Below, in pieces: positions 3,120 through 35,845 of a DNA stretch of 64,000 bases (positions within the stretch are counted from its first letter, which is position 1; the number at the start of each line of letters is the position of its first letter). The notes beneath the pieces were generated by a model. The model ran no database searches. It was not told the DNA's origin and was given only the letters and a program-made list of their open reading frames with translations. The stretch is from Algoriphagus sp. NG3. GTDB lineage: Bacteria; Bacteroidota; Bacteroidia; Cytophagales; Cyclobacteriaceae. Location: NCBI RefSeq assembly GCF_034119865.1, contig NZ_CP139421.1, forward strand, positions 558,001-622,000, in the 5' to 3' direction. The position numbers and the translations under genes were made by a program.

Positions 3120-4106
3120 ATGCCGCCGAAGAAAAGCGTGTCCATAGTAATTCCCAATTACAATGGAGTAGCACTACTCGGGAAATACCTTCCGCATACG
3201 TTTGCTGCGGTGGAAAGTGCTGGCGTGGCTTGTGAAGTGATCGTCGTGGACGATTGCTCTACAGATGGCTCGGTGGAATGGTTAAGAGCTAGATACCCCG
3301 AAGTTACTCTTCTCGTCAATTCTGCCAATCTGGGTTTTTCCATCACCTGCAACCGTGGAATAAAAGCCGCTAAAAACGAGCTGGTCTTGTTGCTGAACAC
3401 TGATGTAGCTTTGGAAAAGGATTATTTCAATAGACTCTGGCGATATTTTGAACCGGAAGACACATTCGGGGTCATGGGTAGGATTATGAATCCGGAAGGC
3501 AAAATCGAAGATGCCGCCCGGCTGCTCTCTTTCAGCGGAATGAAGTTTAAGGCTACCCGGTTTTTCTACTGTGAAGACAAAACTAAAATGACACCCACAG
3601 CCTACCTCTCTGGTGCAAACGCTCTGGTGAGGCGTGAAATGCTCTTGAAGCTGGGGGGATTTGATGAGATTTATTCACCTTTCTACTGCGAAGATGTGGA
3701 TCTGAGTTTCAGGGCTTGGCGCATGGGATGGAAATGCTATTACGAGCATGAAGCCGTCTGTGAGCATGAAGTTTCCAAAACCATACGTTCTAATTCATCC
3801 AAAGATAGACTGATGGCCATCGTTTACCGTAATAAATTTATTCTGCATGCCATACACCTTGATGGCATTCGATTGGCACTTTGGTACTGTCAACTGTTCC
3901 TAATCGAGGTAGTATTACGCATAGTAGTAGGTAAATTCTGGATCCTTACCGCATTGGGTGGCTTTTTTGCAAAGAAAAAGGGTATCCTAGAATCCAGAAA
4001 AAGCCTAAAAAAGATACTTGGAGAACAAGGTCAAAACCAAAGTCTCCGAACCGTAAAAAAGAAATTTTTCGATCCAGTATATTCTTGGAGAATCAACAGG
4101 ATCTGA
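3120..4106 (+). CDS. Family 2 glycosyltransferase
   Basis: I place the start at ATG 3120 (328 residues), because the GT2 domain begins at once (SVSIVIPNYNG) and the longer frame would cross a terminator hairpin. The Rossmann-like nucleotide-sugar domain shows VDDCSTDGS, the metal-binding NTD in LLLNTDVAL, and a GGFDEIYSPFYCEDVDL acceptor-side motif. A hydrophobic stretch near residues 245-280 suggests membrane association of the C-terminal part. The enzyme should add a sugar to a lipid-linked surface polysaccharide. Its 3' end overlaps the start of the ABC exporter gene by about 22 bases, which points to a translationally coupled operon. Confidence 0.85.
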   Translation: MPPKKSVSIVIPNYNGVALLGKYLPHTFAAVESAGVACEVIVVDDCSTDGSVEWLRARYPEVTLLVNSANLGFSITCNRGIKAAKNELVLLLNTDVALEKDYFNRLWRYFEPEDTFGVMGRIMNPEGKIEDAARLLSFSGMKFKATRFFYCEDKTKMTPTAYLSGANALVRREMLLKLGGFDEIYSPFYCEDVDLSFRAWRMGWKCYYEHEAVCEHEVSKTIRSNSSKDRLMAIVYRNKFILHAIHLDGIRLALWYCQLFLIEVVLRIVVGKFWILTALGGFFAKKKGILESRKSLKKILGEQGQNQSLRTVKKKFFDPVYSWRINRI

Positions 4107-5983
4107 GATATTTCGAATATAAAAACAAAATTAAGTCTGTGCCACAATCCTCTATCAAAACCTATTTCAGATTACTGTCATTTGCTAAGCCAATTGAAAA
4201 GTTTGCTATTCCATATCTGTTGTTTACAGTCTTGGGAGTGATTTTCAATACGCTGAACCTGGCTATGCTTGCTCCTTTGCTGAGCACTCTTTTCAATACC
4301 GAGGGAGGGCAAGCTACAGCCGCCCAACCCGAAAAATGGACTGATGTATTTGGTTATCTAAATTACTACGCAGGGCAGGCGAATCTCCATTATGGACCTC
4401 TTGGTGCTTTGCAGGTGGTGTGCGGGGTAATTATTCTGTCTGTCCTTTTGGGTAATCTTTTCCGCTACCTATCTGAACGGGTAATGGAAAATATGCGTAT
4501 TCACACCTTGCTGAATCTGAGAAAACGGGTTTTTGACAATGTGATGAACCTGCATGTGGGGTACTTCAGCAATCAGCGTAAGGGGGATATCATTTCCAAG
4601 ATTTCCTCAGATGTGCAGGTGGTACAGTTTTCAGTAACAGCCACCCTTCAGGTGATTTTCAAGGAACCCTTGCAACTACTGGCATATATTTTCATGTTGT
4701 TTGCCATTTCCTATAAGTTGACCGTGTTTTCCCTTTTGGTCATACCCGTCTCCGCTTTTTTTATTGCCAAAATTGTGAAGCGCCTGAGAAGTCAGGCCTC
4801 AGAGGCCCAGCACAGATATGGTGTGATGATCAGTTACCTGGATGAAGCGCTTTCTGGCATCAAAATCATCAAAGCCTTCAATGCTACAGACTTGATCAAA
4901 AATAAATTCCACCAGGAAAACGTGGAATATTCCAAGTTGGGCAAAAAGATGGCCAAGAGGCAGCAGCTGAGTTCTCCCGTATCCGAGTTTCTCGGTGTAA
5001 CCATGGTGACGGGAATAGTGCTGTATGGAGGGTCTTTGATCATCAACAACCAGTCGGAACTTTCTCCCTCTGATTTCATCGCTTATATTGCCCTCTTCAG
5101 TCAGGTGATGAGACCGGCAAAAGCGCTGACAAACTCCTTCAGTACCATCCACTCCGGTCTTGCTGCTGGAGATAGAGTATTGGATCTTATCGATGTAGAG
5201 CCGGATATCAAAGATGCTCCTGAAGCTGTGACATTGAAAAATTTTGAGAAGAGTATAGAGATCAACAGTCTATCCTTTTCTTACCCAGGCAGACCTGTAC
5301 TGAAAGATATCAATCTCCATATTCCCAAGGGAAAAACAGTGGCATTGGTAGGGCCTTCCGGAGGCGGTAAATCCACCTTAATGGACTTGCTGCCTAGATT
5401 TATAGAACCTGAGCAGGGCTCAATAAGCATTGATGGGCACAATATCCAGAATGTGACTATGGATTCGCTGCGGAATATGATGGGATTGGTAAATCAGGAG
5501 TCCATACTTTTCAATGATACGATTTTCAATAACATTGCCTTTGGCAATCCAAGTGCAACCCCTGCAGAAGTGGAGGAGGCAGCAAGGATAGCGAATGCGC
5601 ATGAATTTATCATGGATACCCAGAACGGCTACCAGACCAATATGGGCGATCGGGGGCTTAAGTTTTCCGGTGGCCAAAAGCAGAGGATCTGTATTGCCAG
5701 AGCTGTGCTGAAAAATCCTCCCATAATGCTACTGGATGAAGCCACCTCAGCCTTGGATACAGAGTCAGAGAAACTTGTTCAGGATGCGCTGAACAAGTTG
5801 ATGAAGAATAGAACCTCCCTGGTCATTGCCCATAGACTCAGTACCATACAGAATGCGGATATGATCGTGGTATTGGAAGAAGGTAGGATCATAGAGCAAG
5901 GTAGCCACCAGGAGTTGATCGGCCGGAATGGGCTATACAGTAAGCTGGTGAATATGCAGCAGTTTACGGAGATAGAAGGATAA
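4085..5983 (+). CDS. MsbA-like ABC transporter, fused permease and ATPase
   Basis: A half-transporter of up to 632 residues with an exporter-type six-helix domain (about residues 30-345) and a C-terminal ATPase. The ATPase has Walker A GPSGGGKST near residue 422, signature SGGQKQR, Walker B IMLLDEATSALD and switch His in IAHRLST. Such homodimers flip lipid A, lipid-linked oligosaccharides or peptides across the inner membrane. Placed among glycosyltransferases, export of a glycolipid intermediate is the best guess. The start is uncertain: TTG 4085 overlaps the previous gene, and GTG 4139 is an alternative giving a typical N-terminus. The next gene begins 4 bases after the stop. Confidence 0.85.
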   Translation: MENQQDLRYFEYKNKIKSVPQSSIKTYFRLLSFAKPIEKFAIPYLLFTVLGVIFNTLNLAMLAPLLSTLFNTEGGQATAAQPEKWTDVFGYLNYYAGQANLHYGPLGALQVVCGVIILSVLLGNLFRYLSERVMENMRIHTLLNLRKRVFDNVMNLHVGYFSNQRKGDIISKISSDVQVVQFSVTATLQVIFKEPLQLLAYIFMLFAISYKLTVFSLLVIPVSAFFIAKIVKRLRSQASEAQHRYGVMISYLDEALSGIKIIKAFNATDLIKNKFHQENVEYSKLGKKMAKRQQLSSPVSEFLGVTMVTGIVLYGGSLIINNQSELSPSDFIAYIALFSQVMRPAKALTNSFSTIHSGLAAGDRVLDLIDVEPDIKDAPEAVTLKNFEKSIEINSLSFSYPGRPVLKDINLHIPKGKTVALVGPSGGGKSTLMDLLPRFIEPEQGSISIDGHNIQNVTMDSLRNMMGLVNQESILFNDTIFNNIAFGNPSATPAEVEEAARIANAHEFIMDTQNGYQTNMGDRGLKFSGGQKQRICIARAVLKNPPIMLLDEATSALDTESEKLVQDALNKLMKNRTSLVIAHRLSTIQNADMIVVLEEGRIIEQGSHQELIGRNGLYSKLVNMQQFTEIEG

Positions 5984-31942: not shown

Positions 31943-32084
31943 TATACCTGTAAAAAAAATATACGGGGAGTAGTAAAAATGAAAAAGCCGCTCGTGAGCT
32001 GTTATGTTTGAAAAAGTAAAAAGGCAAAGCTAAAATAGTTAGATTAAATAGTCTCTAATCAACTTAACCATAACAACTTAGCTT

Positions 32085-33170
32085 ATGCCTTTTACTAAAG
32101 TTAGCGGAAATTCGTTTTCCGGACAAAATCTGTATGTGGGACTGGATGTCCACAAAAAAAACTGGGCAGTATCCATCCTTAGTGATCACCATGAATTGAA
32201 GACAATGAGTACCGATCCAAATCCTGATCATTTGGCAAAGTTTCTTTTTAAGAACTACCCTGGCGCCAACTATCAAGCTGTCTATGAGGCAGGTTTCAGT
32301 GGTTTTGGTACTTGCCGGTATCTTAAAAAACTTGGCATTGATTGTAGGGTTGTCCATCCTGCGGATGTCCCTACCACCCACAAAGAGAAGATACAAAAAA
32401 CCGACACGGCAGACAGCAGAAAGCTGGCCAGGATGCTTAGGAACAATGAAATATCCACTGTCCATATCCCGGATAGTGATTTAGAAATAGACCGTTCATT
32501 GGTCAGGCAAAGATTCAATCTCAGCAAGGATCTGACCAGGCAGAAGATAAGAGTGCGTTCTTTGCTGTTGCAATATGGAATAGAAATCCCCGACCGGTTT
32601 ACCAAATCACAGTATAGGTCCTGGACTAAAATCTACATGGAATGGCTCAGAGATATTCCCGGAATCTCTTTCCAACTCCAAGAAGTGATCAATAATTATC
32701 TTGACACAGGTATAACGCTCAAAAAGCAGTTGTTGTCAGTTACCCGCCAGATAAGAGAACTATCCAAGACAGACAGCTATAGGACAAACTGTGAGCTATT
32801 GACTTCCCTACCGGGTATAAGTACGCTGGTGGCCATGAACCTGCTGGTTCAGATTGGGGACATTAAACGGTTCAGCCGTCTAGAGGAACTCTGCAATTAT
32901 GTAGGAATTGCCCCAACGATGTATAGTAGCGGCGAGAAATCAGCGACAGGAAAACTGAGCAACCGGGGAAGAAAAAGCATCAAGATCATGCTTATAGAGG
33001 CTTCTTGGGTTGCTGTGAGAAGGGATCCTGCCCTGACACTGAGATTCAACGGGTTGATTAAACGGATGAACAAAAACAAAGCAATTATAAAAATCGCCAA
33101 AAACCTACTCAACAGGATAAGGCACATTTTGCTAAATCAAACTCCCTATGAAATGGGGGTAATCAAATAA
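32085..33170 (+). CDS. IS110-family transposase (DEDD recombinase)
   Basis: A 361-residue intact enzyme. The N-terminal RuvC-like domain (DEDD_Tnp_IS110) has YVGLDVHKKNW (first Asp), AVYEAG (Glu) and KTDTADSRKLA (the two later Asp). A coiled region follows. The C-terminal Transposase_20 domain contains LTSLPGISTLVAMNLL and SSGEKSATGKLSNRGRKSIK, in which a Ser is the expected nucleophile. IS110-type recombinases act with an element-encoded bridge RNA that pairs with donor and target. The gene is undamaged, so the element may be active. Confidence 0.93.
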   Translation: MPFTKVSGNSFSGQNLYVGLDVHKKNWAVSILSDHHELKTMSTDPNPDHLAKFLFKNYPGANYQAVYEAGFSGFGTCRYLKKLGIDCRVVHPADVPTTHKEKIQKTDTADSRKLARMLRNNEISTVHIPDSDLEIDRSLVRQRFNLSKDLTRQKIRVRSLLLQYGIEIPDRFTKSQYRSWTKIYMEWLRDIPGISFQLQEVINNYLDTGITLKKQLLSVTRQIRELSKTDSYRTNCELLTSLPGISTLVAMNLLVQIGDIKRFSRLEELCNYVGIAPTMYSSGEKSATGKLSNRGRKSIKIMLIEASWVAVRRDPALTLRFNGLIKRMNKNKAIIKIAKNLLNRIRHILLNQTPYEMGVIK

Positions 33171-33196
33171 GTATTTCAATAACCTTAAAAACTGGA

Positions 33197-33328
33197 AGGG
33201 GATTAAACGGTATTCGTGTATGCGGCGCTCTGAAAGGAAACGACCGTTCTCGTGAGACTACGTCCCCTCCTCTTTAAAATGAACAACAGGTTGCAGCCCG
33301 ACTGCTGATAGGAGATTGTTTAAAGAGG
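33197..33328 (+). ncRNA. Candidate bridge RNA (seekRNA) of the IS110-type element
   Basis: Two adjacent stem-internal-loop hairpins lie 27 bases after the transposase stop. First: outer stem 33197-33203/33262-33268 and apical stem 33222-33227/33241-33247. Its left loop strand has TCGTGT (33214-33219, complement of the REP right arm ACACGA) and its right strand has CTCGTGAGAC (33249-33258, identical to the REP left arm plus core). Second: perfect 10-bp outer stem 33269-33278/33319-33328 and apical stem GCAG/CTGC. Its left strand has AACAG (33285-33289, complement of the left end CTGTT) and its right strand has ATAGGAG (33308-33314, identical to the right end plus core). This is the layout expected of target- and donor-binding loops. 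The full transcript limits are not known. Confidence 0.75.
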
Positions 33329-33587
33329 TTAAAGAAATCAAGAAGGAATTTGTCCACTTTTCTGAAAGTGCAAAGATAGTTTCCTAAGAACACCTGTAAA
33401 GGTTATATGAACTGTGCTGCGCACAGACCTTGACAGATGTTCTCCGGAAACTGAAAAGCACCCAAGAGAAAAGTGAAGTAATAATATTGAATAATTTTAG
33501 CAAAAACCTTGGTTTTCAACATAGGAGACACGAGCGGGGGCAAAGAAGGTCTCGATAAAAAGAAAGATTGTCTCATATACTCCCTAC

Positions 33588-34436: not shown

Positions 34437-34833
34437 ACTTCGCCCCCGTGAGTGTCTCTCACGGATTAAAAACTCCCAGCCCGCGTGAGTGTCTCACTCA
34501 CGGTTTTAATAAACTCTGCTCGTTTAAGCTTCTCACTCACGTTTTACTCGACTTTTTCTTATAATAGTAAGATAGAAGTATGTGTTTGGTGTAGAGACAT
34601 CAAGGAAGATTAAAATAAAAACCGCTCGTGAGACACGATCGGGGACAAAATGTTGGGATGCCATTTGACACACGAGCGGAGGCAAAACGTTGGGGTTCCA
34701 TTTGAGACTCGAGCCGTGGCATAGATCGGGATCTCATCGTCCCCGTGAGTGTCTCACTCACGGTTAATAAAACAACAGATTTTTTTTATTTCAAATAAGA
34801 TATAACTTTTAATAGGATTTTGAATGAGACTTT
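34437..34833. repeat. REP array upstream of the RAYT gene
   Basis: It holds palindromes of two related kinds. Kind A is CCGTGAGTGTCTCACTCACGG-like: 34444-34464 (shortened), 34481-34503 and 34742-34763. Kind B is CCGCTCGTGAGACACGAGCGG-like: 34622-34642 (one change), with half copies near 34663-34679 and 34702-34720 spaced about 40 bases. The loop cores are reverse complements (GTCTC and GAGAC). A 110-base segment (34529-34640) recurs at 35648-35760 on the other side of the gene. No other gene is seen. Confidence 0.85.
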
Positions 34834-35355
34834 ATGGAATTAGGCAGGGTTTACTTTTATACAGCCACGATTCATGATTGGATTCCATTGCTGGCGAAAA
34901 AAGATTATAAAGAAATTATATTGGCTAGTTTAAGTTACTTAGTGAATCAAAGGTGTCTTAAAGTTTATGGTTTTGTGATTATGCCAAATCATATTCATCT
35001 TATTTTGGAAGAAATACAGTTGAATGGTAAGGAGTCAGCTCATGCCAGTTTTCTGAAATTTACCGGCCATAGTTTTCGGTTAAAGTTGCTTAAGGGATCT
35101 CCCGATTTCCTGAATAGGTTCAAGGTAAACATGGTGAATAAAACACATGAATTCTGGCAAGAGAGGTCTTTAGCAGTGGAATTATACAGTCCAAAAATGG
35201 TCTATCAGAAGCTAGATTATATCCATAATAATCCTTGCCGGAAGAAATGGATGCTGTCTCACGATCCGGTAAGTTATCCATATTCTTCTTTCGAGTATTA
35301 TGAGTCAGGTGTAGATAAGTTTGGCTTTTTATCCCATATAGGAGATAGACTTTGA
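34834..35355 (+). CDS. REP-associated tyrosine transposase (RAYT, Y1/HUH type)
   Basis: A 173-residue protein with the Y1 transposase fold: GRVYFYTATIHDW, the metal-binding HUH in VIMPNHIHLIL, and the catalytic Tyr in YQKLDYIHNNPCRK, followed by the conserved SYPYSSFEYYE tail. Proteins of this kind bind and nick REP palindromes and are normally single-copy and domesticated. The gene stands in the middle of its presumed substrates, palindromes on both sides with a long direct repeat at the borders. It appears intact. Its AT content is higher than that of purB downstream. Confidence 0.92.
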   Translation: MELGRVYFYTATIHDWIPLLAKKDYKEIILASLSYLVNQRCLKVYGFVIMPNHIHLILEEIQLNGKESAHASFLKFTGHSFRLKLLKGSPDFLNRFKVNMVNKTHEFWQERSLAVELYSPKMVYQKLDYIHNNPCRKKWMLSHDPVSYPYSSFEYYESGVDKFGFLSHIGDRL

Positions 35356-35845
35356 ACTTGTAAATAGACTTTTAAATTGAAATACTATTCCTGAGAGAAA
35401 GAAGGTCAAATAGAAAAAAGCCGCTCGTGAGACACGAGCGTTGGCAAAGAAGGTCTAAATAAAACCGCTCGTGAGACACGAGCGGGTGCAAAATGTTGGG
35501 ATGCCATTTAAGCCACGAGCGGCGGCAAATCTTTGGACTGTCATTTGGGACACGAATGGCAACGATTAAGTCTTAATGACGGATTTCTCAATCATTTTTC
35601 GCCCCGTGAGTGTCTCACTCACGAATTTAAAAAAAAATGCCCTCACGCTTCTCACTCTCGTTTTACTCATCTTTTCTTATAATAGTAAGGTAGAAGTCTG
35701 TGTTTGGTGTAGAGACATCAAGGAAGATTAAAATAAAAACCGCTCGTGAGACACTAGCGGTGGCAAGATTCTGGGATGCCATTTGAGACACGAGCGTTGG
35801 CAAAGAAGTTTTTGATCAAGCGAGGTTCACGCCCGCTCATTTTTA
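35356..35845. repeat. REP array downstream of the RAYT gene
   Basis: Kind B palindromes at 35421-35441, 35465-35485 and 35739-35760, half copies near 35509-35523, 35545-35558 and 35781-35798, and one kind A palindrome at 35603-35623. Units of about 40 bases share GGCAAA and TTGGGATGCCATTT. The segment 35648-35760 repeats 34529-34640. The array ends about 40 bases before the purB stop. Confidence 0.85.

Follow-up and report, generated by a model that had tools for sequence, protein, structure and literature searches.

Results

An IS1111-type insertion sequence in a REP-like palindrome

The window (the whole stretch of Algoriphagus DNA that was analysed, 64,000 nucleotides) carries an IS110-family element of the IS1111 type, an insertion sequence of 1,529 bases at 31999-33527 with AG on both sides, which interrupts the REP-like palindrome GCTCGTGAG^ACACGAGC. 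A protein search found a single copy in the genome, as did a search with the RNA model introduced below. The element and its flanks comprise:

31990..31998, + strand: left half of the split REP-like target, GCTCGTGAG, ending in the AG core at 31997-31998 (joined flanks palindromic)
31999..32010, + strand: left end, CTGT (the donor loop reads the next T too) followed by TATGTTTG (junction comparison)
32085..33170, + strand: IS110-family DEDD transposase, 361 aa (PF01548, PF02371; NF033542)
33509..33527, + strand: right end, with TTG, the subterminal inverted repeat arm TTTTCAACATA at 33513-33523 and the core AG at 33526-33527
33528..33535, + strand: right half of the split REP-like target, ACACGAGC (flank comparison)

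The transposase scored 208.3 bits with NF033542 (IS110 family RNA-guided transposase; cut-off 140), a model that also scores IS5075, a known member of the IS1111 group, and both PF01548 (DEDD) and PF02371 were found in it. The C-terminal domain contains the G--P----SG motif as GIAPTMYSSG (read from the alignment); as defined in PMC11187229, the IS1111 form of this motif has L after the G. The same domain weakly matched the TIGR-Tas endonuclease model NF052498 (19.8 bits; cut-off 100). Of the two non-coding stretches, the one downstream of the transposase gene is the longer (357 bases, with 86 upstream), which is an IS1111 trait, and the subterminal inverted repeats TATGTTTGAAAA and TTTTCAACATA form 11 pairs, imperfect by one bulged base, where 11-13 bp are usual for IS1111. 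In a transposase tree IS5075 was the sole named member, on a very long branch, and no relatives of the element were found among viral contigs. Further transposases of 81-91% identity (P0001-P0009) were found at protein level only.

Joining the flanks restored the palindrome CCGCTCGTG-AGA-CACGAGCGG, and 0/200 shuffles gave one as good. Further REP-related features lie downstream of the element:

34834..35355, + strand: RAYT-like gene (REP-associated tyrosine transposase; NF047646, 68.6 bits, E 5e-19, below the cut-off of 80)
35424-35438 and 35468-35482, + strand: two intact REP-like target copies CTCGTGAGACACGAG, with one-mismatch copies at 34625 and 35743

The intact copies of this 15-base core stand beyond the RAYT-like gene, within 2.3 kb of the element; together with the joined-flank palindrome they identify the insertion site as a repeated extragenic palindrome. 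Sites within one mismatch of the target number just six genome-wide, four of them beside the RAYT-like gene, which is few for a REP family. Pfam Y1_Tnp matched the RAYT-like gene at E 0.075 only.

A two-hairpin RNA with four candidate guide words follows the transposase gene

The region after the transposase gene contains a candidate guide RNA with the following parts:

33188..33334, + strand: bridge/seekRNA-type guide RNA of two hairpins (model R1, 143.5 bits; pair co-variation)
33198..33267, + strand: hairpin 1, target loop; outer stem 33198-33202/33263-33267, plus CG 33208-33209/33261-33262; inner stem 33222-33226/33242-33247
33214..33219, + strand: right-target guide TCGTGT, complementing top strand ACACGA right of the core
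33249..33256, + strand: left-target guide CTCGTGAG(AC), equal to the top strand left of the AG core plus the core
33269..33328, + strand: hairpin 2, donor loop; outer stem 33269-33278/33319-33328; inner stem 33293-33297/33300-33305
33285..33289, + strand: right-donor guide AACAG, complementing CTGTT at the left end
33308..33314, + strand: left-donor guide ATAGGAG, equal to the last right-end bases including the core

Both hairpins follow a common plan of outer stem, 5' guide word, inner stem TGCRGC/GAYYGYT and 3' guide word ending in AG, so that two internal loops carry target and donor words around a shared core, as in bridge RNAs. TCGTGT at 33214 lies 5' of CTCGTGAG at 33249, meaning that the match to the top strand comes first, as in the IS1111 order rule. 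All four words had been placed correctly by the original prediction, made from this DNA alone, as had the AG core on the 3' strand of each loop with the 5' strands stopping short; these 5' strands continue with AT and GT and would thus pair with the core's A at most. The same prediction drew the RNA over 33171..33526. That interval does hold it, while the conserved RNA occupies just 33188-33334 and the remainder includes a further conserved hairpin (33377-33453) as well as the right end.

The minimum-energy fold of 33171-33345 was unexceptional (z -1.61; 11/200 shuffles fold as well), so the two-loop structure rests on co-variation and not on folding energy. The whole region folds beyond its shuffles (z -4.71, 0/100), probably because of the third hairpin described below. 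Among the first nine sequences, two-sided changes occurred in 7/27 pairs, a number reached by 5/500 shuffles; with 18 RNAs from 17 elements the count rose to 18/27, reached by 0/500, and the conservation expected of the two stems is thereby borne out by many compensatory changes. In the 18-RNA alignment, which was fitted to the structure and therefore leans towards it, 95.4% of cells were paired, compared with 80.8% in shuffles and 38-52% with partners slid. RNAalifold pairs between the two target words were dropped, since they lie in variable guide columns and are broken in 2-3 of nine rows each. The profile R1 was built from nine RNAs, the window's own among them. Rfam gave no match to the guide RNA or to the third hairpin; the window reached its thresholds only for tRNA and a group II intron (RF01999, 56510-56628, 46.7 bits). 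A Saprospiraceae element (L043) carries two guide RNAs in tandem, at 4083-4208 and 4519-4679, the first with a shortened hairpin 2 (80.8 vs 149.2 bits) and a left-target word that differs by one base.

Guide words vary with the flanks and ends of their own elements

Own and foreign fits were compared for 17 elements from 17 genomes: the window, A. terrigena, Litoribacter populi (G128), Mariniphaga, Robertkochia, two Saprospiraceae, Plebeiobacterium, G114, G173, G255, G032, G048, G290, G501, G072 and G028. Guide-word sites were first picked by eye and their register was then fixed by the scaffold. The left flank of Plebeiobacterium and the right flanks of L043 and G048 were missing, and one 4-base G032 left flank was dropped. 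The counts cover relatives with a clear R1 hit; they omit the partial loci L010 and L042 as well as 39-44%-identity relatives at <=12.3 bits, namely G116 L008, G055 L009, L019 (a second G032 element, of which L022 is a copy), L040 (Calditrichia) and L041 (Chlorobium).

The mean fit of the left-target guide was 4.37/6 to its own flank vs 1.60 to foreign ones (n=16), that of the right-target guide 5.39/7 vs 2.82 (n=15, offsets 1-2) and that of the right-donor guide 4.25/5 vs 2.03 (n=16), none of which was reached in 100,000 permutations. The variable G/A base of the left-donor guide matched the right end in 16/16 cases (5 G, 11 A). For the right-target guide the signal was weak at fixed offset 2 (166/100,000 permutations), offset 1 being the best fit for most elements. 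The own flank was unbeaten by foreign ones in 12/16 elements on the left and 12/15 on the right; poor fits were seen for the left-target word of G032 (2/6) and the right-target word of Plebeiobacterium (3/7, bettered by six foreign flanks). The agreement can be read directly in single elements: G173 has the words TTCCGCAG and GGGGACT and the flanks TTCCGCAG^AGTCCCC (exact in 2/4 copies), G072 the words TTTTCTAG and GGTAACA and the flanks GTTTCTAG^TGTTACC, and Robertkochia the word CGGTGAAG and the flank GGTAAAG. The REP words of the window's loop 1 were present in 0/16 relatives, and relatives at targets other than REPs carry words for their own targets, a few of them fitting poorly.

The placement rule was fixed in writing before further searches at order and phylum level. 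The order search matched 3/390 genomes, none of them new, and the phylum search 5/395, giving three new elements, which passed 8/9 checks under the pre-written rule. Their right-target scores were 7/7, 5/7 and 7/7 (best foreign 4, 4, 3), their right-donor scores 5/5, 5/5 and 4/5 (best foreign 4, 3, 4) and their left-target scores 3/6, 4/6 and 5/6 (best foreign 3, 3, 4). The left-target score of 3/6 belongs to G1386, where the core stands one base early; it was scored as failed and is equalled by one foreign element. The donor score of 4/5 belongs to G1377 and is equalled by two foreign elements. Departures from the rule were taken by eye for the hairpin-1 motif of G1254 (TGTAAC/GATTACT), for the hairpin-2 motif TGTAGC in G1386 and G1254, and for the left end TATGTTTA and right end ACATAAAAG of G1377, whose right flank is just 7 bases long at a contig end. 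As several placements depart from the letter of the rule, this test is supportive and not strict. In the 17-element permutations as in the three unseen elements, the words of loop 1 thus varied with the flanks and those of loop 2 with the element ends, which is what had been expected of them. At E<=1e-4, R1 matched 9/390 genomes in the family draw, 2/395 in the class draw, 2/72 in the genus draw, 3/390 in the order draw and 5/395 in the phylum draw; the draws overlap one another and count the window's own genome in.

REP-like palindromes and other targets

The A. terrigena transposase is 83% identical to that of the window, and the two RNAs agree in 114/130 columns outside the target words and in 7/15 within them. 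The A. terrigena flanks (GTGAGTGGAG, GTGAGTTAAG and ACACTCA; left and right from different copies, two of which stop at the end of a contig) fit GTGAGTGGAGACACTCA, a REP-like repeat other than the window's, the predicted target reading GAGTGAAG^ACACTCA, and the words CAGTGAAG and TGTGTGT fit GTGAGTGGAGACACTCA with one or two mismatches each. Each of the two Algoriphagus genomes has a single exact copy of this repeat and three copies that deviate by one base; allowing <=3 mismatches gave 17 and 21 sites vs 4 and 5 for a reversed control pattern. In the window's genome this second REP-like family clusters at G000:C1 970311-971070 and 3667975-3668560.

RAYT was present at E<=1e-8 in 11/12 genomes searched. 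None was found at this threshold in the A. terrigena draft genome, where the element nevertheless sits in a REP-like repeat. The prediction that the RNA guides the element into REP palindromes fits these data, whereas the maintenance of those palindromes by the neighbouring RAYT found nothing in its favour beyond proximity, given the six sites of the window's genome and the case of A. terrigena: the tie between element and RAYT is one of proximity only.

Palindromic or hairpin sites beyond shuffles were found for the window, for G173 (3/4 copies) and for G028 (2/4, insertion in the loop); G290 was borderline (p about 0.055), and by eye G032, G501 and A. terrigena also have such sites. In the two G028 copies, L018 and L021, the insertion point is the loop of an inverted repeat of 13-14 base pairs. 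The proposition that all relatives target REPs was rejected, the flanks of G114, Litoribacter, G255, Saprospiraceae L039 and G072 having no palindrome beyond shuffles (p>=0.07); the test covered elements with sufficiently long flanks and left out A. terrigena, Mariniphaga, Robertkochia, Plebeiobacterium, L043, G032, G048 and G501. The Robertkochia element, as read off the sequence, sits in AGGTAAAG tandem repeats. By eye, short-period intergenic repeats (GGTAAAG, CACAAAG, GCATAG, ACGCAGAG) hold or adjoin many relatives (L033-L038, L003, L012, L039, L044), so that non-REP repeats seem to be targeted commonly. Many relatives have targets of other kinds, and REPs are therefore no inherent target of these elements. 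On the transposase tree, with six elements labelled palindromic (G028 not among them), three changes were needed, two of them forced by well-supported branches.

A third conserved hairpin

Between the guide RNA and the right end lies one more structured segment:

33377..33453, + strand: third conserved long hairpin, apical core GTAAAGGTT...ACCTTGACA (co-variation)

It was found in six elements (the window, L025, L011, L003, L032 and L044), and two-sided changes occurred in 13/23 of its pairs over the six sequences, compared with 0/500 shuffles; the structure was derived from the same six-sequence alignment that was used for the test, which favours it. Both core motifs were present in 6/22 representative loci, some of which end early. 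At the same place G501, G1386 and G1254 have a different conserved block, GTTGCTCCYCAGCAG. L069, L091 and L092 (L069 and L092 on the reverse strand) share a conserved block, TATTGCTNNCARGTTGCTCCYCAGCAG, where others have the third hairpin.

The joined ends form a promoter-like junction

The right end joined to the left end reads ..CATAGGAG|CTGTTATG.. at the predicted circle junction, and the TTG of the right end, corresponding to the -33 half of a promoter, then stands 20 bases from TATGTTTG. At the left end, the subterminal inverted repeat begins with TATGTTTG, which is at the same time a -7 box of the Bacteroidota type. The TTG half and its spacing are familiar from Bacteroidota promoters. 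TTG stood exactly 20 bases before a TATGTTTG-like box in 12/15 joined junctions and 19 and 21 bases before it in two; among these 15 elements the arrangement was not found in G501, and the G072 and G028 junctions have variant boxes. The -7 box of a flavobacterium is described as TAnnTTTG (PMC9723704), and circle formation is reported to create a promoter in both IS groups (PMC11187229).

Discussion

We consider it highly probable (roughly 0.94), judging from sequence, that the element is an RNA-guided insertion sequence and that the RNA after its transposase gene is a bridge RNA (seekRNA). The sequence establishes the structure of the RNA, the four matched words and their co-variation; transcription, binding, catalysis and the circle we infer from work on IS621 and seekRNAs. 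By this analogy, hairpin 1 would pair with both target strands flanking the AG core and hairpin 2, around the same core, with the junction at which the right end meets the left in the excised circle, and the transposase would swap strands at AG. Circle formation would probably create the promoter (TTG, 20 bases, TATGTTTG) driving transposase and RNA. In the present element the target words would spell the REP-like palindrome CTCGTGAG^ACACGA.

The guide RNA could be real and the element dead here, a relic of one insertion, a reading that concerns present activity only and leaves the mechanism as proposed. The element has one copy in its genome, and there is accordingly no second insertion as a sign of activity. 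Set against this are the open 361-aa frame, the matching guide words, the intact ends and the two halves of the junction promoter, and we regard a dead element as rather unlikely. It is far less probable that the REP-like words of loop 1 are a captured REP fragment, acquired for instance via the neighbouring RAYT and devoid of a guiding role. A REP family represented within 2.3 kb of the element does match them, and both are variants of one palindrome arm; the relatives, however, share the scaffold but not the words in these positions, where theirs fit their own flanks, and since matched words occur in relatives at targets other than REPs, capture fails as the sole explanation. Equally improbable is that the structured region regulates the transposase as a leader, attenuator or antisense target and fits flanks and ends by chance: a structured untranslated region and two sRNAs are described as regulating the IS110-family element ISPpu9 (PMC8450116), but chance does not give 0/100,000 permutations in three words and 16/16 in the fourth. 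A regulatory role may exist alongside guiding.

For IS621, a flexible stem-loop on the 5' side, separate from the two loops, is reported to aid recombinase binding (PMC11208158), and our guess by analogy is that the third hairpin may play a similar role. It is conceivable, if somewhat doubtful, that the bridge RNA of this clade has three parts: a target loop and a donor loop that share one TGCRGC...GAYYGYT module, and a further domain needed by the transposase or for RNA processing, which would be the 33377-33453 hairpin in one set of elements and a different conserved block in another. On this view the clade would also have changed its target words time and again in step with intergenic repeats of its hosts, among them REP families.

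Bridge and seekRNAs and REP-targeting relatives (IS621, ISPa11) are already known, and the novelty of the element itself is modest. That IS1111 and IS110 elements are guided by RNA is described in PMC11187229, as are the downstream location and the rule that the top-strand match comes first; bridge RNAs have been predicted in 93.0% of the IS1111 elements in ISfinder (PMC11208160), and REP targeting by IS110 elements has been on record since IS621 and Tobes and Pareja (PMC1525189) at the latest. Among the titles and abstract openings listed, with few subscription journals, none dealt with the Bacteroidota clade or the third hairpin. The present analysis extends the bridge-RNA logic to this clade, with a conserved four-word code that is readable from genome sequence, and describes within one genus a natural retargeting pair, two closely related elements in which a change of target words went together with a change of the REP-like repeat they occupy. 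Such elements offer starting material for programmable recombinases in Bacteroidota.

The closest known systems share much of this arrangement. ISPpu9, ISPpu10 and ISRm19 are IS110-family elements recorded inside REPs in 7/7, 7/7 and 4/4 copies (PMC1525189), in other bacterial lineages and before guide RNAs were known. IS621, of the IS110 group in E. coli, likewise has a target and a donor loop, similarly built, a two-base core and a REP target (PMC11208160, PMC11208158). The RNA of the IS110 group is described as lying mostly in the left end before the gene, whereas here it follows the gene; IS621 has the left guide first, a CT core and an extra stem-loop on the 5' side, and the present element has the right guide first, an AG core and an extra hairpin on the 3' side. 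ISPa11, an IS1111 element of Pseudomonas aeruginosa, is described with a seekRNA that matches both target strands, top strand first, and with a REP target (PMC11187229), as found here. The present element differs from ISPa11 in belonging to a clade of Bacteroidota with a putative RNA scaffold of its own, in the donor words visible in a simple internal loop and in the further conserved hairpin that follows.
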